From positions 62,001 to 126,000 of the forward strand of contig JAIUPQ010000005.1 in NCBI GenBank assembly GCA_020161145.1: a stretch of DNA of 64,000 nt. The letters are read 5' to 3'. Origin of the DNA: Pseudomonadota bacterium (GTDB lineage: Bacteria; Pseudomonadota; Gammaproteobacteria; Burkholderiales; Burkholderiaceae_C). A program made the position numbers and the translations under genes. Below, piece by piece: positions 7,772 to 62,923 of the stretch. The notes under the pieces were generated by a model that was not told where the DNA came from, did not search any database, and saw only the letters and a program-made list of their open reading frames with translations. How positions within the stretch are numbered: the first letter of the stretch is position 1; every line of letters starts with the position of its first letter.

Positions 7772-8539
7772 CTACTTCAACCCACCGCTCAGAAACTGCC
7801 GCAGCCGCTCACTTTGCGGTCGCACCAGAATCTCCTTGGGCTTGCCCTGCTCCTCGATCAGCCCCTGGTGCAGAAACACCGCGTGGCCGGCCACCTCGCG
7901 GGCGAACTCCATCTCGTGGGTGACCACCAGCATGGTGCGGCCCTCGGCGGCCAGCTCGCGCATGACCTTGAGCACCTCGCCCACCAGCTCGGGGTCCAGC
8001 GCACTGGTGGGTTCGTCGAACAGCATGACCTCGGGATCGACCGCCAGCGCGCGGGCAATGGCCACACGCTGCTGCTCGCCGCCCGAAAGCTGGGCCGGAT
8101 GCACATCCTGCCGGTGCGCCAGGCCCACGCGGGCCAGCAGCGCCTGGCCGCGCTCGATGGCCTCGGCCTTGGGCTGGCCCAGCACGTGGATGGGCGCCTC
8201 GATCACGTTCTCCAGCGCCGTGCGGTGCTGCCAGAGGTTGAAGTTCTGGAACACGAAGGCCAGCCGCGCCCGCCAGCGCTGAAGCTGTCTGGCATCGGCC
8301 GCCATCAGGCTGCCATCACGGTCGCGCTTGAGGGCCAGTTCTTCGCTACCCAGCTTGAGCGAGCCCTCGTGCGGTTGCTCCAGCAGGTTCAGGCAGCGCA
8401 AAAACGTGCTCTTGCCCGAGCCGCTGGCGCCGATCAAGGCCACCACGTCGCCCTTGTGCGCGGTCAGCGAGATGCCGCGCAACACCTCGCGTTGGGCGTA
8501 CTTCTTGTGGATGTTGTCGGCGGTGAGGGCAAGCGTCAT
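7772..8539 (-). CDS. aotP: ABC transporter ATP-binding protein, Aot/HisP type
   Basis: The ATPase that powers the adjacent basic amino acid (or beta-Asp-Arg) importer at the cytoplasmic face of the inner membrane. The 255-residue protein has Walker A GASGSGKST (37-45), the signature LSGGEQQRV and Walker [11 protein letters not shown], followed by the H-loop in VVTHEME. It is most like polar-amino-acid ATPases (HisP, ArtP, AotP). It is the last gene of the operon, 5 bases after cphZ. Gene order matches Pseudomonas aotJ-aotQ-aotM-aotO-aotP. Confidence 0.93.
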   Translation of the reverse strand: MTLALTADNIHKKYAQREVLRGISLTAHKGDVVALIGASGSGKSTFLRCLNLLEQPHEGSLKLGSEELALKRDRDGSLMAADARQLQRWRARLAFVFQNFNLWQHRTALENVIEAPIHVLGQPKAEAIERGQALLARVGLAHRQDVHPAQLSGGEQQRVAIARALAVDPEVMLFDEPTSALDPELVGEVLKVMRELAAEGRTMLVVTHEMEFAREVAGHAVFLHQGLIEEQGKPKEILVRPQSERLRQFLSGGLK

Positions 8540-8544
8540 GGTGG

Positions 8545-9666
8545 TCAGGCAGAAAGAAGCGTGCCGCTGCGCTGGGCCTCACGGCCCGCCACCTTGCCCA
8601 GCGTCATGCCGGCATGCGCAAAGCGGCGCAGGTCGCGCGCGAAAAAGAGGCCGTCCACCGGCGCGGCAAGCGTGGTGGTGAGGCCTTCGATGGGGTCGAT
8701 CAGATCCACCAGCGGCGTGCCGGCCGCCACCGGCGTGCCCGGCGTGGCCAGAAACACCACCATGCCGCCATGCGGGGCGATCAGCGGCATGGAGCCGGCC
8801 AGCGGCGTGGCCTCGCAGCGCGCGGGCGGCGGCTCGGGCGCGGGGCCGGCCAGGGCGCCGATGGCGCTGAGGTAGTGGACGATGTGCTGCGCGTCGGCGG
8901 CAGCCAGATCGTGCCGCACGTCGGCCTCGCCACGCAGCTCGATGGTGGCGGCCAGGCAGGCAGCGGGCAGCGGGTTGGCGGCCGGCAGGCGCGCGGCCAC
9001 GTCCACCCAGACCATGGAGCAGGCCTCGTCAAACGGCTCGCCACCCGAGTGCTCGGCCAGCAGCGCCACCTCGGCGCCCAGGTGGCGCGCCAGCAGCTCG
9101 CCGCGGCCGGCCCAGGTTTGCGGGGTGGTGTAGAGGTGCAGCACGGCCTCACCGTCGCAATGCAGATCCAGCACCACGTCGGCGTCGATGGCCAGGCCGA
9201 GCAGCGTGCGGCGCAGATGGGCCAGCGGGTTGCCGTTGGGCAGCGCGGCCACGGCGTCGCGCAGCGCGGCGCGCACGGTGGCCACGTTGTGCGCCGCGTC
9301 GCCAGTCAGCCGGCCTCCGACGGCGGTCAGCACGGCCGGTGCCAGGTCGGTGAACTGCCGGTTGAAGTTCTCGCCGCTGGCCACGTCGAAGCGGCCCTGG
9401 TAGCCGCGCAACACCCACTGGTGGGTGCCGATGGGGTTGGCCATGGGCACCAGCACGATCTCGCCCTGGATGTGGCCGGCCGCCTCGGCCGCGTCCAGAT
9501 GCCGGCGCAGGTGGTGGGCCACCAGCATGCCGGGCACCTCATCGGCATGCAGCGAGCCCTGGATGTAGACCTTGGGCCCGCGCCCCGGCGTGCCGTAGTG
9601 CAGGCTGATCAACTGCTGCGTGGTGCCGGGGGTGGCGCTGTGAAGGGTATGGGTTTGGCGTTGCAT
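8545..9666 (-). CDS. cphZ: Zinc-dependent cyanophycin dipeptide hydrolase (CphZ/AotO), M14 family
   Basis: A 373-residue member of the succinylglutamate desuccinylase/aspartoacylase branch of the M14 zinc hydrolases. Expected zinc ligands are His40 and Glu43 in SLHADE and His169 in DLHCD, with a catalytic glutamate near 244 in IELRGE. GENFNRQF is also a family hallmark. Its place between the permease and ATPase genes equals that of aotO in Pseudomonas. AotO homologues have been shown to be CphZ enzymes that split beta-Asp-Arg into Asp and Arg. The start at 9666 gives a 1-base overlap with the aotM stop (TGATG). Function is inferred from family and operon order. It could instead act on another N-acyl amino acid, but the upstream cyanophycinase favours CphZ. 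Confidence 0.85.
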   Translation of the reverse strand: MQRQTHTLHSATPGTTQQLISLHYGTPGRGPKVYIQGSLHADEVPGMLVAHHLRRHLDAAEAAGHIQGEIVLVPMANPIGTHQWVLRGYQGRFDVASGENFNRQFTDLAPAVLTAVGGRLTGDAAHNVATVRAALRDAVAALPNGNPLAHLRRTLLGLAIDADVVLDLHCDGEAVLHLYTTPQTWAGRGELLARHLGAEVALLAEHSGGEPFDEACSMVWVDVAARLPAANPLPAACLAATIELRGEADVRHDLAAADAQHIVHYLSAIGALAGPAPEPPPARCEATPLAGSMPLIAPHGGMVVFLATPGTPVAAGTPLVDLIDPIEGLTTTLAAPVDGLFFARDLRRFAHAGMTLGKVAGREAQRSGTLLSA

Positions 9667-10352
9667 CAGCGATGGGTCATGGGCGCGAGCCAGCGGCGCT
9701 CGGCAAAGCGAAACAGCGCCACCAGCACGAAGGTGATGACGAGGTAGAACACGGCTGCGGTCAGAAAGGCTTCGAACGGCAGGTAGAACTTGGCGTTCAT
9801 CTCGCGCGCGGCGCCGGTGATGTCCATCAGCGTGACCACGCTGGCCAGCGCGGTGCCGTGCAGCATCAGCACCACCTCGTTGCCGTAGGCGGGCAGCGCG
9901 CGGCGAAAGGCTTGCGCCAGCACCACGCGGCGCAGCATCACCCAGCGGCTCATGCCCAGCGCCTTGGCGGCCTCGATTTCGCCCAGCGGCACGGCGCGCA
10001 TGGCGCCGGCAATGATCTCGGTGGTGTAGGCGCAGGTGTTGATGGCGAATGCCGCCATGGCGCAGAACCAGGCCGACGACAGCAGCGGCCATAGCGCGCT
10101 GTCGCGCACGGCCTCAAACTGGGCCAGGCCGTAATAGAGCAGGAACAGCTGCACCAGCAGCGGCGTGCCACGGATCACGTAGGTGAACAGCCACACGGGG
10201 CGCGACACCCACGGCGAAGGCAGGCTGCGCAGCATGGCCAGCGGCAGCGCCCCGGCCAGGCCCAGCGCCAGCGCCAACACCAGCAGCTCCAGCGTCGTCA
10301 GCGTGCCCGCCCAGTACATGGGCAGGCTGTCGGTGATGGCTTGCCAGTCCAT
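9666..10352 (-). CDS. aotM: ABC transporter permease, HisM/AotM type
   Basis: Inner-membrane permease of 228 residues with about five hydrophobic segments. The EAA-type cytoplasmic loop that contacts the ATPase is near EIEAAKALGMSRWVMLRRVV. It starts directly over the stop of aotQ (TGATG) and its stop overlaps cphZ the same way, so the genes are translationally coupled. Homology class is polar amino acid transport (His/Arg/Orn). With aotQ it should form a heterodimeric channel. Confidence 0.92.
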   Translation of the reverse strand: MDWQAITDSLPMYWAGTLTTLELLVLALALGLAGALPLAMLRSLPSPWVSRPVWLFTYVIRGTPLLVQLFLLYYGLAQFEAVRDSALWPLLSSAWFCAMAAFAINTCAYTTEIIAGAMRAVPLGEIEAAKALGMSRWVMLRRVVLAQAFRRALPAYGNEVVLMLHGTALASVVTLMDITGAAREMNAKFYLPFEAFLTAAVFYLVITFVLVALFRFAERRWLAPMTHR

Positions 10353-11038
10353 CAGAAGGTCGCCTTACGCACACCGACCGAGAAGCGCGTTTGCAGCCAG
10401 GCAAAACCGGCCTCCGAGAGGCTGGTGAAGGCCAGGTAGACCAGCGCCACCGCGCCGTAGAACAAAAAGGGCTCGCGGGTGATGCCGGCGGCCTGGCCGG
10501 CGCGGTTCATCAGATCGGCCAGGCCAATGACCGAGACGATGGAGGTGCTCTTGAGCATGACCAGCCAGTTGTTCGACAGCCCCGGCAGCGCATGGCGCAG
10601 CATCTGCGGAATGATGACGCGGCGCCAGGTTTGCGTGGGGGTCAGGCCGTAGGCCACGGCGGCCTCGCGCTGGCCGGCGGGCACGGCCAGCACGGCGCCG
10701 CGCAACACCTCGGTCAGGTAGGCACCGAAGATGAAGCCGATGGTGGCCACGCCGGCGACGAAGGGGTTGATGTCGATGTAGTCCCAGCCCAGGCGCTCGC
10801 CCAGCTGGTTGATCAGCATCTGGCCGCCGTAGAACACCAGCAGCATGGTGACCAGGTCGGGCACGGCGCGCACCAGCGTGGTGTAGAGCGTGGCCACGCC
10901 GCGCGCCACACGCGAGCGCGAGAGCTTGGCCGCCGCGCCCAGGAGACCCAGCAGCGCCGCAATGGCCAGCGAGCCCAGCGCCACGCCCAGGGTGACCAGG
11001 GCGCCCTGAAGCAGCGCGGGGGCGTAGCCGTGCAGCAT
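10352..11038 (-). CDS. aotQ: ABC transporter permease, HisQ/AotQ type
   Basis: Second permease subunit, 228 residues, with hydrophobic segments spread over the whole length. The conserved cytoplasmic loop is near QREAAVAYGLTPTQTWRRVI. The start codon abuts the TAA of aotJ with no gap, which supports one transcript from the binding-protein gene onward. It pairs with the other permease in the polar-amino-acid uptake family. Confidence 0.92.
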   Translation of the reverse strand: MLHGYAPALLQGALVTLGVALGSLAIAALLGLLGAAAKLSRSRVARGVATLYTTLVRAVPDLVTMLLVFYGGQMLINQLGERLGWDYIDINPFVAGVATIGFIFGAYLTEVLRGAVLAVPAGQREAAVAYGLTPTQTWRRVIIPQMLRHALPGLSNNWLVMLKSTSIVSVIGLADLMNRAGQAAGITREPFLFYGAVALVYLAFTSLSEAGFAWLQTRFSVGVRKATF

Positions 11039-11815
11039 TTACTGGCCGAATACGTCGAAGTCGAAGTACTTGGCCTCGATCTTCTTGTAGCTGCCGTCGG
11101 CGCGGATGGCGGCGATGGCGGCATTGAACTTCTGCACCAGCGCCGCATCGGCCTTGCGCACGGCGATGCCCGAGCCGGTACCGAAGTATTTGGGGTCGTC
11201 CACCGGCTGGCCCAGGAAGGCAAAACCCTTGCCGGCCGGGCGCTTCAAAAAGCCCAGGTCGGCGGCCACCGAGTCGATCAGCAGCACGTCCACGCGGCCG
11301 GCGGCCAGGTCGAGAAACGCCTCATCGGCCTTGCCGTAGCGCACGATCTGGCTGCCGGTGTAGATGGCCGTGGCGTAACGGTCCTGCGTGGTCGAGCGCT
11401 GCACGCCGATCTTCTTGCCCTTGAGCGCAGCCACCGAGATGTTGGGCGCCAGCGTGGCCTTGCCCACGATGCGCGCCGGGGTGTTGTAGTACTTGTTGGA
11501 GAACGCCACCTGGCGCTGGCGCTCTTCGGTGATGGACATGGACGAGATGATGGCGTCGAACTTGCGCGCCTGCAGTGCCGGGATCATGCCGTCCCATTCC
11601 TGCTGCACCAGCGTGCACTCGGCGCCCATGCGGGCGCACAGCGCCATGGTGATGTCCACGTCAAAGCCCTTGAGCTTGCCGTCGGTGCCGATCTCGGAGA
11701 ACGGCGGATATGCCCCCTCGATGCCGATGCGCACCTTCTTCCAGTCGGGCGCCTGGGCATGGGCAAGGCCGGCCGCCAGGGCCAGCGCAGCAAGCAACGT
11801 ACGGCGAAGCAACAT
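11039..11815 (-). CDS. aotJ: Periplasmic substrate-binding protein, HisJ/ArgT/AotJ type
   Basis: Periplasmic receptor of the ABC importer, about 258 residues with a cleavable signal peptide ending near GLAHAQA. The mature protein has the family-3 solute-binding pattern: IGIEGAYPPFSE, GFDVDITMALC and AIISSMSITEERQ. The last is the region that contacts basic amino acids in HisJ/ArgT. ATG at 11815 is preferred over the adjacent GTG because a GGAGG site lies 6 bases before it. Likely substrates are Arg, Orn or the cyanophycin dipeptide beta-Asp-Arg. It lies 130 bp downstream of the cyanophycinase, separated by a structured repeat. Confidence 0.9.
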   Translation of the reverse strand: MLLRRTLLAALALAAGLAHAQAPDWKKVRIGIEGAYPPFSEIGTDGKLKGFDVDITMALCARMGAECTLVQQEWDGMIPALQARKFDAIISSMSITEERQRQVAFSNKYYNTPARIVGKATLAPNISVAALKGKKIGVQRSTTQDRYATAIYTGSQIVRYGKADEAFLDLAAGRVDVLLIDSVAADLGFLKRPAGKGFAFLGQPVDDPKYFGTGSGIAVRKADAALVQKFNAAIAAIRADGSYKKIEAKYFDFDVFGQ

Positions 11816-11861
11816 CACAAACCTCCATTCATCGCAGACAGATCACGCACACCACAGCCCA

Positions 11862-11945
11862 ACCCAGCACGCACCGCCGATCCGGCTTCGCCGGTCGACT
11901 GGTGCGGCCCCTTGAGGGGCGCGATCTGTGATCGCGTAGGGGTGG
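11862..11945 (-). repeat. Intercistronic three-hairpin repeat, copy A
   Basis: Lies directly after the cyanophycinase stop and before aotJ. Three hairpins in a row on the transcribed (-) strand: GCGATC/GATCGC around a 3-base loop; GCCCC/GGGGC around TTGA; and a longer arm in which GCACC (11871-11875) faces GGTGC across a CCGG-TTC-type loop. The same architecture recurs in copies B and C, with different but complementary bases in the outer arm. It may stabilise, terminate or attenuate the upstream message. Confidence 0.8.
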
Positions 11946-13223
11946 TCAAGGTTTCGGCCACGGGGTGAACAACGGACGAGCCATTTTGACGGGCTGCACA
12001 TCCAGATAGATGTTGGCCACCGTGTAGTCCTCGCCGCCCTGGGCGTCGGTGTACCAGCCCATGCTGTCCTTGCCTTTGTAGAGGCGCAAAGCAAAGCCCA
12101 AATCGGCGCGGGCCTGGTCTTCAGGTGCCAGCGCGTCGAACGCCAGGCCTCTTATCTGGGTCAGCTTGCTGTCGATCAGGTAGGCCATGGCGTTGCTGAT
12201 GATGCGCTCGCCCAGCATGTCCACGTAATAGGGCTCGACCTCGTATTCGGGCTTGTAGCTGGCGGCGTTGGGGTCCAGCTTCTGGCCATCGAGTTTCTCG
12301 AGGCTGGGGAAGATGCGGCTTTGCGCCAGGTCGTACTGATCGCCCGCGTCCAGGTAGGTCAGCCTCGCGCCGGTGAAGTTCAGTGCCGGCTGGCTGGCAT
12401 CGACGTGGATGGCCGACAGGTCCACCAGCAGCGCCCCCTTGGCACCCATCACCTCCACCTGATCGCCATGCACCACGGCGGCGCTGTTTTCCTCAACGCC
12501 CAGGCCCAGTTTGTAGCCCTTGGCAATCATCAGCGGAATCATGCGGCCAAAGCGCCCTCGCTTGAGGAAGTGCTGGTCCACGAACACCTTGGGGCCGATG
12601 AAGCCCAGGCCCTCGTCGATCTCCTTGCCCGCGCGCAAGTCGCCCTTCATCACGTTGATGACGCTGTAGGCATCGCGGAACATGATCTGGCTCATGATGG
12701 CCGCGCCGGCCGAGGTGCCGGCCACCACGCCGCCGCGCCGGTACAGCGCCCAGATCGCATCCAGCATGGGCGTGGAGCGCCCGCCCGGGCGCAGCGTGTC
12801 CACGATGCGCTCCTGCGCGCCACCCGAGAAGAACACCCCTTGGGCGAGGTTGATCTCTTCGAGCAGCGCCGGGTCGCGCACGGCCTTGTCGAGGTCCACC
12901 CATTTGAAGGCCGGCGCCACCGGCAGCACCTCGGCCTGCGCGCCGCGCTTGACCAGCTGCTCGCTGATGCGCCGGCCGGTCTTGTCGGGGTTTTGCGACG
13001 CCGTGCCCAGCACCACCCACTTGGAGCCGCGCCCGCCCGACAAGGCCACCAGCCGACGCCAGATGTCGTCGTTGTCGTCCTGCAGCGCGCCGCCGATGAC
13101 GACGGCATAGCCTTTGGCGGTATCGGGGGAAGGCATGGCGGGTGATGCAGCCCAGACGGGCGCGCCCAGCAGCAGTGCACAGGTCAGCAACAGGCTGCGA
13201 CGCGACGGGAGCGTGGGGTGCAT
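11946..13223 (-). CDS. cphE: Exported cyanophycinase (S51 serine peptidase)
   Basis: Cleaves the cyanophycin backbone to beta-Asp-Arg dipeptides. The 425-residue protein starts with an Arg-containing hydrophobic signal peptide ending near VWAAS, so it is exported to the periplasm or medium, like CphE rather than cytosolic CphB. The mature part carries S51 landmarks: YAVVIGGALQDDN, FFSGGAQERI and the nucleophile motif GTSAGAA with Ser171. It is longer than cytosolic CphB (about 270 residues), as known extracellular forms are. It is upstream of and codirectional with the aot operon, and divergent from a TonB-dependent receptor. No cyanophycin synthetase is in the window, so the role is scavenging or remobilisation (inference). 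Confidence 0.88.
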   Translation of the reverse strand: MHPTLPSRRSLLLTCALLLGAPVWAASPAMPSPDTAKGYAVVIGGALQDDNDDIWRRLVALSGGRGSKWVVLGTASQNPDKTGRRISEQLVKRGAQAEVLPVAPAFKWVDLDKAVRDPALLEEINLAQGVFFSGGAQERIVDTLRPGGRSTPMLDAIWALYRRGGVVAGTSAGAAIMSQIMFRDAYSVINVMKGDLRAGKEIDEGLGFIGPKVFVDQHFLKRGRFGRMIPLMIAKGYKLGLGVEENSAAVVHGDQVEVMGAKGALLVDLSAIHVDASQPALNFTGARLTYLDAGDQYDLAQSRIFPSLEKLDGQKLDPNAASYKPEYEVEPYYVDMLGERIISNAMAYLIDSKLTQIRGLAFDALAPEDQARADLGFALRLYKGKDSMGWYTDAQGGEDYTVANIYLDVQPVKMARPLFTPWPKP

Positions 13224-13378
13224 GGGCGGTGGCCGAAAGCAAAGCGCCGATGCTAGCCCAAGGCGCTGCGTGCCGAAAAGCCACAGTCTGGGGCGCTGCG
13301 GCAGGTCTCGATTGGCAAGCCGCGCTGCGCCCTATATCGTGCTGCGCGTGCCGCCTTGGCCCGCCACCGGAAGTAACC

Positions 13379-16162
13379 ATGATCGCCAGACCGCTTGCGC
13401 TTCGCTTCGTTCCCCGCGTCATTGCCCTGGCCGCCACCCTGGCCGCCAGCGGTGCCTGGGCCCAAGAGGCCCCGCCCGCGCCGGAGGCGCCGGCCGCAGC
13501 GCCGCAGCGCGTCGTCATCACCGGTTCGGCCATCAAGCGCATCGACGCCGAGACGGCGCTGCCGGTGCAGGTGATCCGGCGCGAGGACATCGTCAAGGCG
13601 GGCCTGACCACCGCCGCCGAAATCATGGCCAAGCTGTCGGCCAACGCCAAAGGCCTGACCGACGGTGGCAGCATCTCCATCGGCGGCTACCACGACCAGA
13701 CCGGCCTCAACAGCGTCAACCTGCGCGGCATCGGCACCAGCAGCACGCTGGTGCTGCTCAATGGCCGGCGCATGGCCAACTTCGCCTCGCCCGGTGACGA
13801 CGCCGGGGTCGATCTGAACAACATCCCTGCCGCCGCCATCGAGCGCGTCGAGGTGCTGCTCGACGGCGCCTCGGCCCTCTACGGCACCGACGCCATCGGC
13901 GGCGTCGTCAACTTCATCACCCGCACCGACTTCGAGGGCGCCGAGGTCAACGCCTACGTGGGGGCCACGCAGGAAGGCGGCGCGGGCAAGCGCGAGTTCT
14001 CCATCGCAGCCGGCGTCGGCAATCTGGACGAAGACGGCTTCAACGTCTTTGGCGTCTTCGACGTGCAGCGCACCGGCGCGCTGAACGCCAACCAGCGCCA
14101 GTTCATCAGCGACCTGAAGATTCCCGAGCGGCTGCCCCACCTGCTGTCCAGCGCCACCAGCCCCGGCAACATCCGCCTGTCCAGCTCGCAGCGCAACCTG
14201 CTGCAGGACGAGGGTTTTTCCACCAACGGCAAAGACGTCATCGTCAACCGCACCATCAACCTGAGCGCGCCCGAGTGCAGCCCGCCGCACACGCTGTACC
14301 TGCCCAACGGCATCGGCGGCGTGGACGGCTGCACCTTCGACTACATGCGCGACGTGGAGCTCTACCCCAAGAGCGACAAGCTCAGCTTCCTGGGCCGCGG
14401 CGTGTTCAAGCTGAACAACGACCACCAGGCCTATGCCGAGCTGTCGGCGGCGCGGGCCAAGTCGTATTACGTGGGCACCTCCAACCGGGTGGATGCCGAC
14501 ATGGACGTCTCGCTGATCCCCGAGCTGGCGGCCACGGGCCTGGGCGCGCTGGACCCCGACGACGAAGACCGCATCATCACCGTGCGCACCCGCATCCTCG
14601 ATGCCGGCCGCCGGGTCAGCGAGCTGACCAGCACCGGTACCCGCCTCGTCGCCGGTGTCATGGGCACGCTGGGCAGTTGGGACTACGACGTGGCGCTGAA
14701 CCGCAGTGTCAACACCGTGAGCGACCGCGACAAACATGGCTACCTGCTCTACACCCCGCTGATGAAAGGCTATGCCGACGGCACGCTCAATCCCTTTGGC
14801 CCGCAGGACGCGGCTGGGCAGGCGTATCTGGACGACATCCAGGTCGATGAGGTGGTGCGCCGCGCGCGCGGCACCATGACCGGCATCGACGGCAAGCTCT
14901 CGACGACCTTGGGCCAAATGGCTGGCGGCCCCATGGGGCTGGCCGTGGGCACCGAGTTCCGCCGCGAATCGGCCTGGTTCCGTCCGTCGGCGCTGCTGGT
15001 CAGCGACGAAATCACCGGCGATGCCTCGCCCGGCGAAGGCCAGGAGACCGACAACGGCCGCAACGTGGCCGGCCTCTATGGCGAGCTGGCGCTGCCGGTG
15101 GCCAAGGGGCTGGAGTTGCAGGTGGCCGCCCGCTACGACCACTACCAGGGCGTGGGTGGCACCTTCAACCCCAAGGCCGGCATCCGCTGGCAGCCGGCCG
15201 CCGAGTGGGTGGTGCGCGGCTCGATGGGCACGGGCTTCAGGGCGCCCTCGCTGGCCGATCTCTACCGGCCGGCGCGGGGCAGCCAGACCTCGGTGCTGCC
15301 CGACCCGGTCTACTGCGCCACGGAAGACAACGACTTTTCCATCTGTGCCGACAACTGGGACACCCGCATCTACAGCAACCCCAACCTCAAGCCCGAGCGC
15401 AGCACGCAGTTCTCGGCTGGGGTCATCTTCCAGCCCACGGCCAACTGGAGCTTCAGCGCCGACTACTGGAACATCAAGAAGCGCGACATCATCAGCACCA
15501 TCGGCGAGGACGTGATCCTGGCCAACCCCACCAAGTACGCCAACCTCATCCACCGCTACAACCAGGACGGCAACCCGTTCTGCGACTACGACCCCGACGA
15601 CGTGGGCATTTGCTACATCGATCTGGTCAAGGAAAACCGCGGCCGCCTGCGCACCGCAGGGCTGGATCTGGTGGCCGAGTTGCGCGGCGTCAAGACCTAA
15701 TGGGGCACCTGGGGCGCGCGCCTGGCCGGCACCGTGGTCTTGCAGTCCGAGCAGCAGACCGCGCCGGGCGACCCCTATGTCAGCAACCTGGGCCGCTTCG
15801 TCACCGACGGCGTGGTGCAGCGCTGGCGCCACCGCCTGACCATCGATTGGGAGCATGGCCCCTACAGCCTGATGCTGGGCAACAGCTACATGTCCAGCTA
15901 CGACGACCAGAACTCGGCCATCGACACCGACTCCGGCAGCGTGGTGACCAAGAACCGCGTGGCCGCCTACTCGCTGTGGGATCTCTCCGGCGCCTGGGCC
16001 GTGACCCGCGAGCTCAAGCTGCGCGCCGGCGTGCAGAACCTGCTCAACACCTCGCCGCCGTTCTCCAACCAGGCCTATTACTTCATCAACGGCTACGACC
16101 CCAGCTACACCGATCCGCGCGGACGCTTTTACTACCTGAGCGCCACCTACCGCTTCAACTGA
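13379..16162 (+). pseudogene. TonB-dependent receptor interrupted by an in-frame TAA
   Basis: The reading frame from 13379 encodes a signal peptide (cleavage near GAWAQ) and a TonB-box-like VVITGS. The plug domain includes NLRGIGTSSTLVLLNGRRMA and ALYGTDAIGGVVNF, and a beta-barrel follows. At 15698-15700 a TAA replaces codon 774. The same frame then resumes without a shift (WGTWGARLAG...) and reaches a normal receptor end, ATYRFN, at 16162. Without the stop it would be 927 residues; with it, the last 153 residues of barrel, including the C-terminal aromatic signature, are lost. It is divergent from the cyanophycinase gene, which suggests a role in taking up cyanophycin fragments (inference). 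Options are a recent nonsense mutation, a sequencing error or readthrough. Confidence 0.85.
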
Positions 16163-16420
16163 AGCGGTGCGGCGCAAAGGGTGATGTGCCCCATACGCTT
16201 GCAGGCGGGCGGCCCTGGATGCATGATGCCGGGATCAGTCCGGCCTCGTCAGTCATGACGGGGCCCGGCGTTCGGCCTGCACACGCGCCTGACCGGCGGG
16301 GGCTGCATGGGCCTCCACAGGCGTGGAGTTGAGAGGCTGCGGGTTGCGGGCGGCATCAGGCCACCCGCGCAAGCCCCGCGACCCGGCGGCAGCCGCGTCG
16401 GTGTAGAACAGGTCATCTGC

Positions 16421-19400
16421 ATGCATTTCGCCCCTTTGGCCTTGGTACCGGTTGCGTTGCGCGCCGTGCTGTTGTGCGCGGTGGCGGCGAGCCTGGTCCA
16501 GCCACTGCGGGCCCAGCGTCCAGAGCCACCCCGCCCTGCGCCGGCATCGGCGCCCGCCGCGCAGGAGGTGTTGCTGCCGGCGCCGCAGGTCCAGGCGCTG
16601 GTGCCGCAGACGGTGACGCGCCACGCACTGGGTGAGGCGGTTTCGGTGCGCCTGGGGCAGCCCCTGAGCGGCTTGACCCTCAACCCCGGCATGGGGTTGC
16701 GGGTGGGCGTGGTCTCCAGCCTGACCATCGATGCCGACGGCATGATGTGGGTGGGCGGCAGCGCCGGCATCCAGCGCTTCGACGGTCGCAACCTCAGCGA
16801 GCCGCTGCGCCATCAGCAACGGGTGCAGCCGCAGGCCTCGGTGCGCGAACCCGAGCAGCCTCAGCAGCGCGGGCCCGATGCCGACGCCTTGCGCGACATT
16901 GAAATGCTGCACGCGCAGGGGCCGTGGCTGTACTACACCACGCAGGACGGCGTGTTTTCCTATTACCGGCCCACAGGGCTGTCGCGACAGATTGCCGACG
17001 ACGGCAGCGGCTGGAAGGACGTGGAGCCGGAGGCCGGGGAGCGGCCCTATCGCGTCCGGCCGCAAACCCAGTGGTGCCTGGCCGGCCCCAACCGGCTGCT
17101 GGCCCTGTCCGAGGCGGCGCCCACGCGCCAGCTGCGCGACATCGATCTGGCCAGTGGCGCCGTGCGGCGGGTGGAGTTGCCGGGCGTCCCCAGCGACAGC
17201 GCCATCGTGATCACGCCGCTGTGCAACGCCACCTACCTCATCTGGGTGGATCACGGCCTGGGCAAGTTGCGACGCTACCGCCTGTCGGACGGTGCCTTGC
17301 GCGATATCGAATTGCCGCCCGACATGCTGCCCGAGCCCAGGGCGCGGGACGCCGGCTGGTCGCTGTTGGCCTGGTCGCTGGACGGCCAGCCGCTGCTGGG
17401 CACCAGCCAGGGCGTGGCACGGCTCGACTTTGCCGCCGCACGGCTGGTGCTCGATCCGGCGCTGTCGCAAGGGCTCAAGGGCTCGCGGCTCACGGGCTAC
17501 GAGCGTGAGGTCTGGCGACTGAGCACCGGCACGTCCCGCCTGTGGGTCAGCCGCCGGGGCTCCGAGCTGTTCGAGGTGACCCCCGATGGGGCCGTGGCCT
17601 CGCACCGGCTGGGCTGGACGCAAGGCATCACCGAGTCGGGCGTCAGACCGATTTTTGGCCTGGTCACCACCGTCTATGGCACGCAGGAATGGATCTGGCT
17701 GCTGCAGGGCGAGAGCGTGGTGGGGTATATGCGCGACACCGCGCCGCAAATCGTCTCGACCACCGTGCACGCCGACGACGTCGGGCATTTCCGGGCCGAC
17801 GTCTGGGGCGTGTGCGACGACGCGACGGGCCAGCGCTGGGTGATCAACTCACTGGGTCAGGTGGGGGTGCACGCGCTGCGCGGTCCCCAACGGCTGCATG
17901 TGCTGCCCGACGTGGTGGGTGTCAGCCAGGGGCGCTGCATGGGCGGATCGCTGTGGGCGCTGAGTCAGGGCGGGCTGGTGCAGTTGACGCGCGTGGCCGA
18001 CACCGTCGAGGTGCGGCGTTTTCGGGCGCTGGACAACCTCGGCACCGGCACGCGGGTGCGCATGCAGCAGGTCGATGACGAGCGGCTGCTGCTGCTGACG
18101 CCGCAGCGCGTCCGGCTGCTGGACGTGCGCAAACAAGAGGTGCTGACGCAGGCGCTGCCCGGTTATTTCAAAGCCCTGATGGCGCCGCCATTGCCACGGC
18201 CGGGCCACCCTGATCAGGCACTGGTCAGCGGCCCGGGGGCTGACACCATGACGCTGGTGTCGCTGGACATGCGGCGCATCTGGCCGCTGCATCTGGCCGC
18301 GCCGTCCGAGCCGGCGGCGCTCGCACCGACGCGGGTGCCGCCCATGGAGCTGGCCGCCTGGGTTGACGAGGAGCGCCTGATCGCCGTGCGCCACGACGGC
18401 CAGAGCCGGGTGCTGTGGGTGTCGGACACGGGGCAGGTGGCGCGCGTGGAGCCCCTGCGCCTGTGGCCTTGGTGGCGTGGCCGTGTCGGCTATTGCGCCC
18501 TGCCCGGCTACGGTGGCAGCGCCATCTTGTCCACCACCCAGGGGCTGGCCCAGATCAGCCTGACGGCCGCGCAGGCCGACTACCTGACGCAGCGCGAAGG
18601 CGTGGCGTGGGACGACTTCAATGCCGATGCCTGCTCGCTGCGCGGCAGCCGGATGCTGTTCGGCGCCACCATGGGCTGGACCGAGGTCGATACCACCAGC
18701 CAGGTGAACAAAGACCAGTTGCCGGTGCCGATGCTGCTGATGGTGGGCGAGGGGCGCGAGCCCATGCGGGCCTGGGCGCCAGGGGTTGACGAGGTGTTGG
18801 CCATCGACGAGCAATCGGGCGTGCTGAGACTGGATATCGGCCTGGATCGCTTCAGCGGCCGGCATGACTTCGACCTGTACTACCGGCTCAAAGGGGTGGA
18901 GCCGGCCTGGCGGCGCAGCGCCGATGGCGGGCGGGTGGAGTTTGCCGGCCTGCGCGCGGGCGACTACGAGATCGAGTACGGCTTTGCCGACGACCTGGGC
19001 GACCCGGAGGCGGTGCGCAGCGTCACGCTGACGGTGCGCGCACCCTGGTGGCGCAGCAGCGCCATGCTCATCCTCGTCGCGCTGGCGCTGGCGGCCGTGC
19101 TGGCAGCCTGGTCGGTGCAGCAGCGGCGCAACCTGGCCCGCCTGGGCGCGTCGCGCCAGCAGCTCAGCCTGGCGCTGGAAGGCTCGGCCGGGGTGTTGTG
19201 GGATCGCTGCGAGGGACAGGTCTCGTGCACCGACGCACCCTGGCTGCAGCTGACCGCCAACGACCTCTCGGGCACCGTCGCCTCGTTCGAGGAGCGCATC
19301 CACCCCGAGGACTTGCCGCGCTACAAGGCGGCGGTGCAGCTGTGCGAAGCCCACCTCTCCGAAGGGTTGTTCATCGAATACCGGCTGCGCCATGCCAAGG

Positions 19401-20827
19401 GGCATTGGGTCTGGGTGCGCGATGCCGGGCGCGCGTTTGCCCGCCTGGGGCCGGACATGCCGGCACCGCGGCTGGTGGGCACGCTGCACGAAATCAGCCA
19501 CGTCAAGCAGATCGAGGAAGACCTGCGTCGCATGGCCAGCACCGACGAGCTCACCGGCCTGCCCAACCGGCGCGAATGCAACCGCTTCATCGACGCCGCC
19601 ATCTCGCGCACGCTGGCTCGCGGCACCTCGTTTTGCCTGCTGTTCCTCGACCTCAACCAGTTCAAGACCATCAACGACTCGCTGGGCCACAGCTTTGGTG
19701 ACGCCTTGCTGCGCCGCGTGGCGTCCGACCTGACGCGGGCGCTGCCGCGCAAGGGCACGCTGTTCCGGCTGGGGGGCGATGAATTCGTGGTCTGCCTGCA
19801 GGAGTGCGACGTCGCCCAGGGCGAGCGGGTGGCGCAGACCCTGCTCGACGCGCTCAGTGGCATCCGCAACATCAACGGCGTGGACGTGCACGTCACAGGG
19901 GCGTTCGGCATCGCCGCCTGCCCGCAGCATGCCGATTCGCGCAAGGAGTTGCTGCAGTTTGCCGATGCGGCCATGTATGCGGCCAAGGCCAGCGGCCCGC
20001 ACAGCTACATGGTGTTCGAGATGCAGGACGCATCGCGGCTGGTGCAGCGCGCCCACATCGAGGCCGCGCTGGCCCAAGGCCTGGCGCGCCGCGATTTCAG
20101 GGTGCTGTACCAGCCCATCTGCGACGCCCAGACCCGCCGGACCTGCCGCTACGAGGCGCTGCTGCGCTGGCAGCACCCGCAGTTCACGGAAGAGCCGCTG
20201 CAGCGGGTCATCGACATCCTGGAAACCAGCGGCCTGATCCGCAGCGTGGGCGCCTGGGTGCTGGACCAGGCCCTGGCCGACCACCACACGCTGTGTGCGC
20301 TCAACCCGGACGAGCCCGCGCTGGGCATTTGCGTCAACGTCTCGGTGCACCAGTTGCGCGATGCCGGCTTTGTGCAGGAAGTCGAGGCGGCCTGCCAGCG
20401 CCACGACGTGGCGCCCCATGCCCTGGAGATCGAGGTGACCGAGTCCGTGCTGGCCAGCACCCACGAATGCATCAGCCACACGCTGGGGCGCCTGCGTGCC
20501 CTGGGTGTGGGCGTGAGCATCGACGACTTCGGCGTGGGCTACTCATCGCTGAGCTATCTGCAATCGCTGCCGGCCACCACCTTGAAGATCGACAAGTCCT
20601 TCATCGATGGCATCGACAGCAACGAAGTCTCGCGCAAGCTGTGCATGTCGCTGATCTCCATGGCCCATGCGCTGGGGCTGCGCGTGGTGGCCGAGGGCGT
20701 GGAGCGCGAGGCCCAGCTGCGCGACCTGCAAAGTGGCGGCTGCGAGGAAGTCCAGGGCTACCTGTTCGCGCGCCCGATGGAGCTGGCGGCCATGCAGCAA
20801 AAGGCCAGCACCGCGCCCGCAGGCTAG
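16421..20827 (+). CDS. Propeller-sensor diguanylate cyclase/phosphodiesterase (GGDEF-EAL)
   Basis: A 1468-residue membrane sensor that should make and/or degrade cyclic-di-GMP. From the N-terminus it has a signal peptide or anchor, then a periplasmic beta-propeller of two-component-regulator type (MMWVGGSAGIQRFDG and later repeats, about 80-770). A Y_Y_Y-like domain, one membrane segment (about 880-900) and a PAS-like domain (about 910-1030) follow. GGDEF is intact (about 1118) and the EAL domain (YEALLRW about 1245, DDFGVGYSS about 1367, then KIDKSF and AEGVE) has its catalytic residues. The usual RxxD inhibitory site before GGDEF is not present. ATG 16421 was chosen because it begins the signal peptide. 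An upstream ATG at 16307 adds an unlikely leader. Confidence 0.9.
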   Translation: MHFAPLALVPVALRAVLLCAVAASLVQPLRAQRPEPPRPAPASAPAAQEVLLPAPQVQALVPQTVTRHALGEAVSVRLGQPLSGLTLNPGMGLRVGVVSSLTIDADGMMWVGGSAGIQRFDGRNLSEPLRHQQRVQPQASVREPEQPQQRGPDADALRDIEMLHAQGPWLYYTTQDGVFSYYRPTGLSRQIADDGSGWKDVEPEAGERPYRVRPQTQWCLAGPNRLLALSEAAPTRQLRDIDLASGAVRRVELPGVPSDSAIVITPLCNATYLIWVDHGLGKLRRYRLSDGALRDIELPPDMLPEPRARDAGWSLLAWSLDGQPLLGTSQGVARLDFAAARLVLDPALSQGLKGSRLTGYEREVWRLSTGTSRLWVSRRGSELFEVTPDGAVASHRLGWTQGITESGVRPIFGLVTTVYGTQEWIWLLQGESVVGYMRDTAPQIVSTTVHADDVGHFRADVWGVCDDATGQRWVINSLGQVGVHALRGPQRLHVLPDVVGVSQGRCMGGSLWALSQGGLVQLTRVADTVEVRRFRALDNLGTGTRVRMQQVDDERLLLLTPQRVRLLDVRKQEVLTQALPGYFKALMAPPLPRPGHPDQALVSGPGADTMTLVSLDMRRIWPLHLAAPSEPAALAPTRVPPMELAAWVDEERLIAVRHDGQSRVLWVSDTGQVARVEPLRLWPWWRGRVGYCALPGYGGSAILSTTQGLAQISLTAAQADYLTQREGVAWDDFNADACSLRGSRMLFGATMGWTEVDTTSQVNKDQLPVPMLLMVGEGREPMRAWAPGVDEVLAIDEQSGVLRLDIGLDRFSGRHDFDLYYRLKGVEPAWRRSADGGRVEFAGLRAGDYEIEYGFADDLGDPEAVRSVTLTVRAPWWRSSAMLILVALALAAVLAAWSVQQRRNLARLGASRQQLSLALEGSAGVLWDRCEGQVSCTDAPWLQLTANDLSGTVASFEERIHPEDLPRYKAAVQLCEAHLSEGLFIEYRLRHAKGHWVWVRDAGRAFARLGPDMPAPRLVGTLHEISHVKQIEEDLRRMASTDELTGLPNRRECNRFIDAAISRTLARGTSFCLLFLDLNQFKTINDSLGHSFGDALLRRVASDLTRALPRKGTLFRLGGDEFVVCLQECDVAQGERVAQTLLDALSGIRNINGVDVHVTGAFGIAACPQHADSRKELLQFADAAMYAAKASGPHSYMVFEMQDASRLVQRAHIEAALAQGLARRDFRVLYQPICDAQTRRTCRYEALLRWQHPQFTEEPLQRVIDILETSGLIRSVGAWVLDQALADHHTLCALNPDEPALGICVNVSVHQLRDAGFVQEVEAACQRHDVAPHALEIEVTESVLASTHECISHTLGRLRALGVGVSIDDFGVGYSSLSYLQSLPATTLKIDKSFIDGIDSNEVSRKLCMSLISMAHALGLRVVAEGVEREAQLRDLQSGGCEEVQGYLFARPMELAAMQQKASTAPAG

Positions 20828-61643: not shown

Positions 61644-62923
61644 ACGGCATCATCATCTTTGGCCTGCTGGTGGTGCTGATGCTCACCGGCATGCCGATTT
61701 CCATCGCGCTGGGCCTCACCGTGCTGACCTTCATCTTCGGCTTCACCGAGGTGCCGCTGGCCTCGGTGGCGCTCAAGCTGTTCACCGGCATCGAGAAGTT
61801 CGAGATCATGGCCATCCCGTTCTTCATCCTGGCGGGCAACTTCCTGACCCACGGCGGGGTGGCGCGGCGCATGATCCGCTTTGCCACCTCCATGGTGGGC
61901 CACTGGTATGGCGGCCTGGGGCTGGCCGGCGTGCTGGCCTGCGCCCTCTTCGCGGCGGTGTCGGGCTCGTCGCCGGCCACCGTGGTGGCCATTGGCTCCA
62001 TCCTGCTGCCGGCCATGGTCAAGGCCGGTTTTCCCAACCGCTTCGGTGCGGGCGTCATCACCACCTCGGGCGCGCTGGGCATCCTGATCCCGCCGTCCAT
62101 CGTGATGGTGATGTATTCGGTCTCCACCAACACCTCGCTGGGCGCCCTCTTCATGGCCGGCGTGGTGCCGGGCATTGGCCTGGCGGCGGCGCTGGGCTTC
62201 ACCACCTGGTACCGGGCGCGCAAACACAACTACCCGCGCATGGCCAAGGCCAGCTGGGGTGAGCGTGGGCGCGCGCTGCGCGAGTCGCTGTGGGGGTTGC
62301 TGCTCATCGTCATCGTCATGGGCGGCATCTACACCGGCTTGTTCACGCCCACTGAGGCGGCGGCCATGTCGGCCGTCTACGCCTTCTTCATCGCCGTCTT
62401 CGTCTACAAGGACATGGGCCTCAAAGACGTGCCGCGCGTGCTGCTGGCCTCGGCCAACATGAGCGCCATGCTGCTGTACATCATCACCAACGCGGTGCTG
62501 TTCAGCTTTGTGCTGGCCAACGAGAACATCCCGCAGCAACTGGCCGACTGGCTGGTGGGCATGGGCCTGGGCGCCATTGGCTTCCTGCTGGTGTGCAACA
62601 TCTTGCTGCTGGCGGCGGGCAACTTCATGGAGCCCTCGTCCATCGTGCTCATCATGGCGCCCATCCTGTTCCCGGTGGCCATGAAGCTGGGCATCGATCC
62701 AGTGCATTTCGGCATCCTGATCGTCGTCAACATGGAGGTGGGCATGTGCCACCCGCCCGTGGGGCTCAACCTCTACGTGGCCTCGGGCATCACCAAAATG
62801 GGCATCACCGAGCTGACCGTCGCCGTCTGGCCGTGGCTGCTGACCATGCTGATGTTCCTGGTGGTGGTCACCTACTGGCCGGCGCTGTCGCTGGCCCTGC
62901 CGCGGGCGTTGGGCATGCTGTGA
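61640..62923 (+). CDS. dctM: TRAP transporter large permease DctM
   Basis: A 427-residue membrane subunit with around 11-12 hydrophobic segments, driving sodium- or proton-coupled uptake of dicarboxylates with DctP and DctQ. Landmarks: LTGMPISIALGLTVLTFIFG, AVSGSSPATVVAIGSILLP and MEVGMCHPPVGLNLYVASG. Starts over the dctQ stop (ATGA). Length is normal. Confidence 0.95.
   Translation: MNGIIIFGLLVVLMLTGMPISIALGLTVLTFIFGFTEVPLASVALKLFTGIEKFEIMAIPFFILAGNFLTHGGVARRMIRFATSMVGHWYGGLGLAGVLACALFAAVSGSSPATVVAIGSILLPAMVKAGFPNRFGAGVITTSGALGILIPPSIVMVMYSVSTNTSLGALFMAGVVPGIGLAAALGFTTWYRARKHNYPRMAKASWGERGRALRESLWGLLLIVIVMGGIYTGLFTPTEAAAMSAVYAFFIAVFVYKDMGLKDVPRVLLASANMSAMLLYIITNAVLFSFVLANENIPQQLADWLVGMGLGAIGFLLVCNILLLAAGNFMEPSSIVLIMAPILFPVAMKLGIDPVHFGILIVVNMEVGMCHPPVGLNLYVASGITKMGITELTVAVWPWLLTMLMFLVVVTYWPALSLALPRALGML

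Follow-up and report, generated by a model that had tools for sequence, protein, structure and literature searches.

Very probably, a cyanophycin-utilisation module is encoded between positions 7772 and 16162 of the 64,000-nucleotide window analysed here (the whole stretch from positions 62,001 to 126,000 of contig JAIUPQ010000005.1, assembly GCA_020161145.1, Burkholderiales, Burkholderiaceae_C), combining cleavage by an exported cyanophycinase (CphE), import by an Aot-type ATP-binding cassette (ABC) system, hydrolysis by the dipeptide hydrolase CphZ, and import of fragments by a TonB-dependent receptor whose gene stands divergent from the rest. Cyanophycin is a nitrogen-rich storage polymer. 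The arrangement exceeds chance, as it recurs in the genus, in the family, and in the Oxalobacteraceae.

The cyanophycin locus and its proposed route

The original prediction had described six same-strand genes and read them, together with the receptor, as a complete cyanophycin route. The order and coordinates of the six genes on the minus strand were confirmed, the family assignments were as expected (Table 1), and a complete route at one locus is supported as a prediction from these families. The Aot/His-type importer is present as a full set of binding protein, two permeases, and ATPase, with cyanophycinase, dipeptidase, and transporter genes clustered together. AotJ has its closest solved relatives among histidine-binding and lysine/arginine/ornithine-binding proteins. 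His-type models give the best matches for both permeases and the ATPase, yet these score under the curated cut-offs of NCBIfam.

Table 1. Features of the cyanophycin locus (positions in the window)
Feature	Position	Strand	Basis
aotP/hisP-type ABC ATPase	7772..8539	-	ABC_tran 3.5e-33; best NCBIfam HisP 361.6 bits, under equivalog cut-off 466
cphZ (AotO-type) cyanophycin dipeptide hydrolase	8545..9666	-	AstE_AspA_cat; phmmer matches to PDB 8ein, 8eip
aotM/hisM-type permease	9666..10352	-	BPD_transp_1; HisM 242 bits vs cut-off 306
aotQ/hisQ-type permease	10352..11038	-	BPD_transp_1; HisQ 262.2 bits vs cut-off 319
aotJ-type periplasmic binding protein	11039..11818	-	SBP_bac_3; TIGR01096 265.5 bits, above cut-off 256.35
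Long CphE-type cyanophycinase (S51), 425 aa	11946..13223	-	TIGR02069 136.3 bits, above cut-off 126.6
Intergenic gap of the divergent pair	13224..13378		cphE ATG to ATG chosen for receptor frame
TonB-dependent receptor gene, interrupted	13379..16162 (13379-15697, stop, 15701-16162)	+	Plug and barrel domains, two pieces
In-frame TAA, receptor codon 774	15698..15700	+	Single internal stop of receptor frame

In the best-supported part of the chain, with activities predicted from the protein families, CphE would reach the periplasm, or possibly the outside, by export and cut cyanophycin to beta-aspartyl-arginine (beta-Asp-Arg); AotJQMP would carry this dipeptide, and probably arginine too, across the inner membrane; and CphZ would split it into aspartate and arginine in the cytoplasm. 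On the basis of its linkage, the most likely role of the receptor is to draw cyanophycin fragments across the outer membrane for a periplasmic CphE to finish the cut, a Sus-like sharing of the work. With its receptor frame broken, this genome may have lost that step, may rely instead on externally released dipeptide diffusing through porins, or may only seem to lack the step through a sequence error.

The residues expected of both enzymes are in place. Ser171, His218, and Glu245 of CphE do not vary across alignments of 21 and of 43 sequences, and are equivalent to the Ser/His/Glu triad proposed for CphEal of Pseudomonas alcaligenes DIP1 in the part of PMC3235067 that deals with that enzyme. 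CphEal resembles the present enzyme in length (a 1260-bp gene) and, by appearance, in carrying an export signal; a Sec signal was reported there, whereas the apparent export signal at the N-terminus of CphE is twin-arginine-like, as judged by eye. The word TonB is absent from PMC3235067. An AlphaFold2 model of CphE (predicted local distance difference test score, pLDDT, of 90.5) found its best Foldseek matches in 7uqv, 7uqw, and 3en0 over some 280 alignment columns. CphZ, present as one gene copy in the genome, aligned over residues 13-364 with the solved structures 8ein (9.3e-73) and 8eip (6.3e-72) in phmmer. Both carry the PDB name succinylglutamate desuccinylase, and we take them to be the published CphZ. 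His40, Glu43, His169, and Glu243, presumably the metal-site residues, are invariant across 16 sequences.

Conservation of the receptor-cyanophycinase linkage

Conservation was followed in 16 genomes of the genus, 399 genomes of the family, and 80 loci from named records, the last being the best 80 matches, and thus a top slice, of an alignment-based contig search; 15 named loci that duplicated genome loci were removed before the flank count, the trees, and the distances. An earlier contig search with a single protein query had returned 25 pattern matches, none of them relatives, and was replaced by the alignment query.

The original prediction would have been refuted had receptor and cyanophycinase not been conserved together; the pairing is conserved, whether counted from the receptor or from the enzyme. 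In the reverse test (receptor orthologues taken with the first receptor piece at E <=1e-150, best two candidates per genome, window included), a long cyanophycinase lay within 2 kb of 55 of the 68 receptor orthologues in the family genomes and within 10 kb of 58, whereas none lay within 10 kb at any of the 16 places of another receptor from this genome that served as the control; the control was a single partial sequence (666 aa), searched at 1e-110 rather than 1e-150 and compared by eye with the cyanophycinase positions. The forward count, which excluded the window, required flanks of 4 kb or more to either side of each open reading frame (ORF) for the enzyme, and counted tandem cyanophycinases separately, showed that the fetched stretch contains an orthologue of the receptor for 102 of 149 long-cyanophycinase ORFs (genus 9/9, family 54/73, named records 39/67).

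Within the genus, 14 of the 16 genomes, the window's own among them, carry the long cyanophycinase, and the divergent receptor was present at 11 of the 13 fetched loci of the relatives; at one further locus (L040), the contig ends upstream. Copies of aotP, 81-84% identical, stand last in the operon at 10 of these 13 loci, and at L033, L038, and L039 the contig ends before the position of aotP. Beyond the genus, the full order of receptor, CphE, AotJ, AotQ, AotM, CphZ, and AotP recurs (e.g., L090, L091, L094, L102, L111, L120, and L129), and elsewhere the receptor-enzyme pair occurs with no CphZ in the fetched stretch (e.g., L072-L076 and L078-L083). Among the best 80 named loci, 41 hold a full-length receptor orthologue. 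With strand orientation taken from the locus gene maps, since the side labels of the flank table are unreliable where stop-to-stop frames overlap, the receptor was found on the strand of the enzyme at 17 named loci, all of them from Oxalobacteraceae (Janthinobacterium, Massilia, Duganella, Rugamonas, and others), with 36-61% (receptor) and 38-44% (enzyme) identity to the window. CphZ is divergent at 16 of these 17, and a DcuC-family permease and an RpiR-type regulator were found at the two scanned for neighbours (L192 and L198). The divergent order is kept at L183, also from the Oxalobacteraceae.

Two loci carry a protein of the beta-lactamase fold (PF00144) after the receptor gene on the same strand (L072:4464-5594 and L077:4301-5467). 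In another genus, receptor pieces spanning 0.8 kb lie next to CphE, with CphZ close by (L087:6875-7703), apparently as a decayed copy.

The internal stop of the receptor gene

The divergent TonB-dependent receptor of the original prediction holds as a plus-strand gene with plug and barrel domains; its integrity does not. The ORFs 13142-15700 and 15734-16162 share one frame and are split by the TAA at 15698-15700, which cuts off the last 153 residues of the receptor, including the closing C-terminal strand of the barrel. Plug (1e-20) and barrel (5e-34) domains were matched in the first piece and the barrel again (5.2e-8) in the second, whereas the aligned receptor copies in 11 relatives of the genus are all uninterrupted. 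The nearest relative is 72.7% identical up to the stop and 71.9% beyond it, with no sign of decay. Because conservation after the stop equals that before it, the lesion is either very recent or a sequence error.

That the stop arose in sequencing or assembly, leaving the whole route intact, comes close to an even chance: the TAA is the sole stop in the receptor frame, and the near-equal identities on its two sides give no hint of relaxed constraint, but a recent genuine nonsense mutation would look identical.

A cyanophycin synthetase gene in the same genome

As the original prediction had it, there is no cyanophycin synthetase in the window: none of the 15 CphA-family matches in the genome falls inside it. 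The further claim, that the organism would live on polymer made by others, is unsupported, because the same genome encodes CphA1 about 115 kb from the locus (C4:193135-195672; an 853-aa ORF scoring 970.9 bits against a cut-off of 850). Beside CphA1 lies a second CphA-like gene (L045:5823-8306, corresponding to G000:C4 ~195.8-198.3 kb), which scores 652 bits, under the CphA1 cut-off. An IaaA-family gene (PF01112) and a type II secretin are also present in the genome.

These two synthetase-type genes lend something to the idea that the operon recycles cyanophycin of its own kind, released through lysis of sister cells or leaking to the periplasm, rather than polymer of other species. In the family, CphA1 was found in 248 of 399 genomes at E <=1e-200 (240 above the cut-off) and in 56 of the 63 genomes with a long cyanophycinase, an enrichment uncorrected for kinship. 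Nevertheless, recycling of its own polymer appears rather unlikely, as an enzyme with an apparent export signal should miss cytoplasmic granules, and as 192 of the 248 CphA1 genomes are without a long cyanophycinase, which is not what would be expected of a general degrader of a cell's own polymer. The latter pattern fits a role for CphE on polymer outside the cytoplasm.

The substrate of the receptor

Siderophore, colicin, or B12 receptors are the closest solved relatives of the receptor in both sequence and fold; the fold comparison, made with a model of the orthologue from Ideonella benzenivorans (mean pLDDT 75.2), recovered the general receptor fold and nothing more, and the whole genome has 17 plug-domain matches. 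It is nonetheless improbable that an ordinary receptor for siderophores or vitamins lies here by chance beside an operon whose Aot system imports arginine, at a locus devoid of an outer-membrane step of its own: such relatives, the broken frame, and the unlinked orthologues would suit that explanation, but the structural matches indicate fold only, and the linkage far exceeds that of the control and survives different gene orders.

Several observations weigh against the proposed route, including import of cyanophycin fragments by the receptor. Besides the interruption of the receptor frame in this genome, 47 of the 149 cyanophycinase ORFs have no receptor nearby, including those of complete aot-cphZ operons (L098, L104, and L177); one relative within the genus (L038, counted as a short flank) shows none in 9 kb upstream; and the receptor is absent at many Oxalobacteraceae loci (e.g., L199, L202, L206, L208, and L209) and in the fetched stretch of all 11 Planctomycetota-like loci. 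Linkage is lacking for ten of the 68 receptor orthologues, which include close paralogues; the receptor subfamily need not, therefore, have one substrate. Beta-Asp-Arg would, moreover, be small enough for porins, and AotJ of Pseudomonas aeruginosa binds L-arginine according to the relevant part of PMC6829864, so the Aot system may carry mainly arginine, as well as the dipeptide or instead of it. Finally, a long cyanophycinase is present in all 51 family genomes with the receptor (Fisher 2.6e-53), but also in 12 of the 13 with the control receptor; because genome-level co-occurrence is thus unspecific, it was rejected as evidence and linkage alone was kept. Receptor-rich lineages probably share both receptor and enzyme.

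The surroundings of the unlinked receptors vary. At L235, about 4 kb at most separate the receptor from a complete set of aot and cphZ genes, and at L237 it stands directly beside cphZ, followed by a family-5 binding protein and a permease; some unlinked paralogues lie near a recQ-like gene, as judged by eye, and a DUF885 protein precedes an unlinked close receptor paralogue at L229:6039-7757. The Planctomycetota-like loci come from contigs of metagenome-assembled genomes (L184-L190, L194, L196, L223, and L227) with long cyanophycinase homologues of 40-47% identity; no receptor, CphZ, or Aot homologue was found in their fetched stretches, some of which are short.

Evolution of the pairing

Trees were built by FastTree, and the enzyme tree had flagged long branches. 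Over the 105 rows of the receptor tree, the arrangement label changes 11 times, one of these being the separate label of the window, and the same-strand state changes four times. Receptor and CphE distances over 94 pairs are correlated with a Mantel r of 0.425, a value reached in none of 999 permutations. This moderate correlation fits re-pairing of lineages: in the example pairs, near relatives agree in their receptor-enzyme pairing and deeper lineages pair differently. Tree congruence was not used as support, since co-inheritance of neighbours yields it anyway. It is about an even bet that this receptor subfamily is devoted to TonB-dependent import of cyanophycin fragments, as a Sus-like system of the outer membrane for a storage polymer of isopeptide type, and that it has been re-paired more than once in the Burkholderiales with different exported cyanophycinases and inner-membrane importers, namely the Aot ABC system, the DcuC-family permease, and possibly a Dpp-type system.

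Relation to known systems

Sharon et al. are said to have described, in PNAS in 2023, an aot operon with CphZ/AotO in Pseudomonas. The present locus resembles that operon in the CphZ family and in grouping CphZ with a binding protein, two permeases, and an ATPase, and differs from it in having a long, apparently exported cyanophycinase at the operon head and a divergent gene for a TonB-dependent receptor.

The original prediction held the latter two features to be unusual, which was overstated given what is already in print. The paper of Sharon and Schmeing (2023, PMC10206079), in the passages concerned, mentions the dipeptide hydrolase family of CphZ and cites Ben Hania et al. for scavenging clusters of cyanophycinase, isoaspartyl dipeptidase, and transporter genes. 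Those clusters are alike in grouping the three functions; however, they were counted in genomes without cphA1 and use iadA or iaaA, whereas the present genome has cphA1 and clusters CphZ as the dipeptidase. Tang et al. (2012, PMC3400609) noted a TonB-dependent transporter beside a cyanophycinase in Citromicrobium sp. JLT1363 and proposed cyanophycin as its substrate. That pair is likened to the present one by description rather than by receptor subfamily; it comes from one alphaproteobacterial genome, and the passages concerned mention no CphZ or Aot genes. The cyanophycin passages of PMC12661447, PMC7564069, PMC11890772, PMC10687191, and PMC2536512 describe no receptor beside a cyanophycinase, and a secreted putative cyanophycinase is noted in that of PMC2536512. 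No report of a receptor-CphE-CphZ module across the Burkholderiales was found in the literature searched, to which the PNAS article of Sharon et al., which may show part of it, did not belong. What appears new is the joining of receptor and exported cyanophycinase with an inner-membrane importer and CphZ; scavenging clusters and one receptor-cyanophycinase pair were known before.

Exported cyanophycinases are known, though for the passage of cyanophycin or its fragments through the outer membrane the literature found offers only a one-genome proposal (PMC3400609). A receptor subfamily kept beside cyanophycinases despite changed gene orders is a testable candidate for this step, with relevance to the bacterial turnover of cyanophycin nitrogen in water and soil.

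Plasmid-borne relatives and the neighbouring gene

The plasmid collection held no close CphE homologue (22 records, all <60%), and its nearest receptor relatives show 36.6% identity. In one annotated plasmid record (L252, CP124675.1 256460-272970), such a receptor relative shares its cluster with TonB and ExbB/ExbD, YejB-type permeases, a solute-binding protein, and TldD/PmbA-type peptidases; the cluster looks like a peptide-import island, a point in favour of the proposed route. In the window itself, the receptor gene is adjoined at 16307-20827 by the gene for a large sensor-like protein with GGDEF/EAL-like stretches, as judged by eye.

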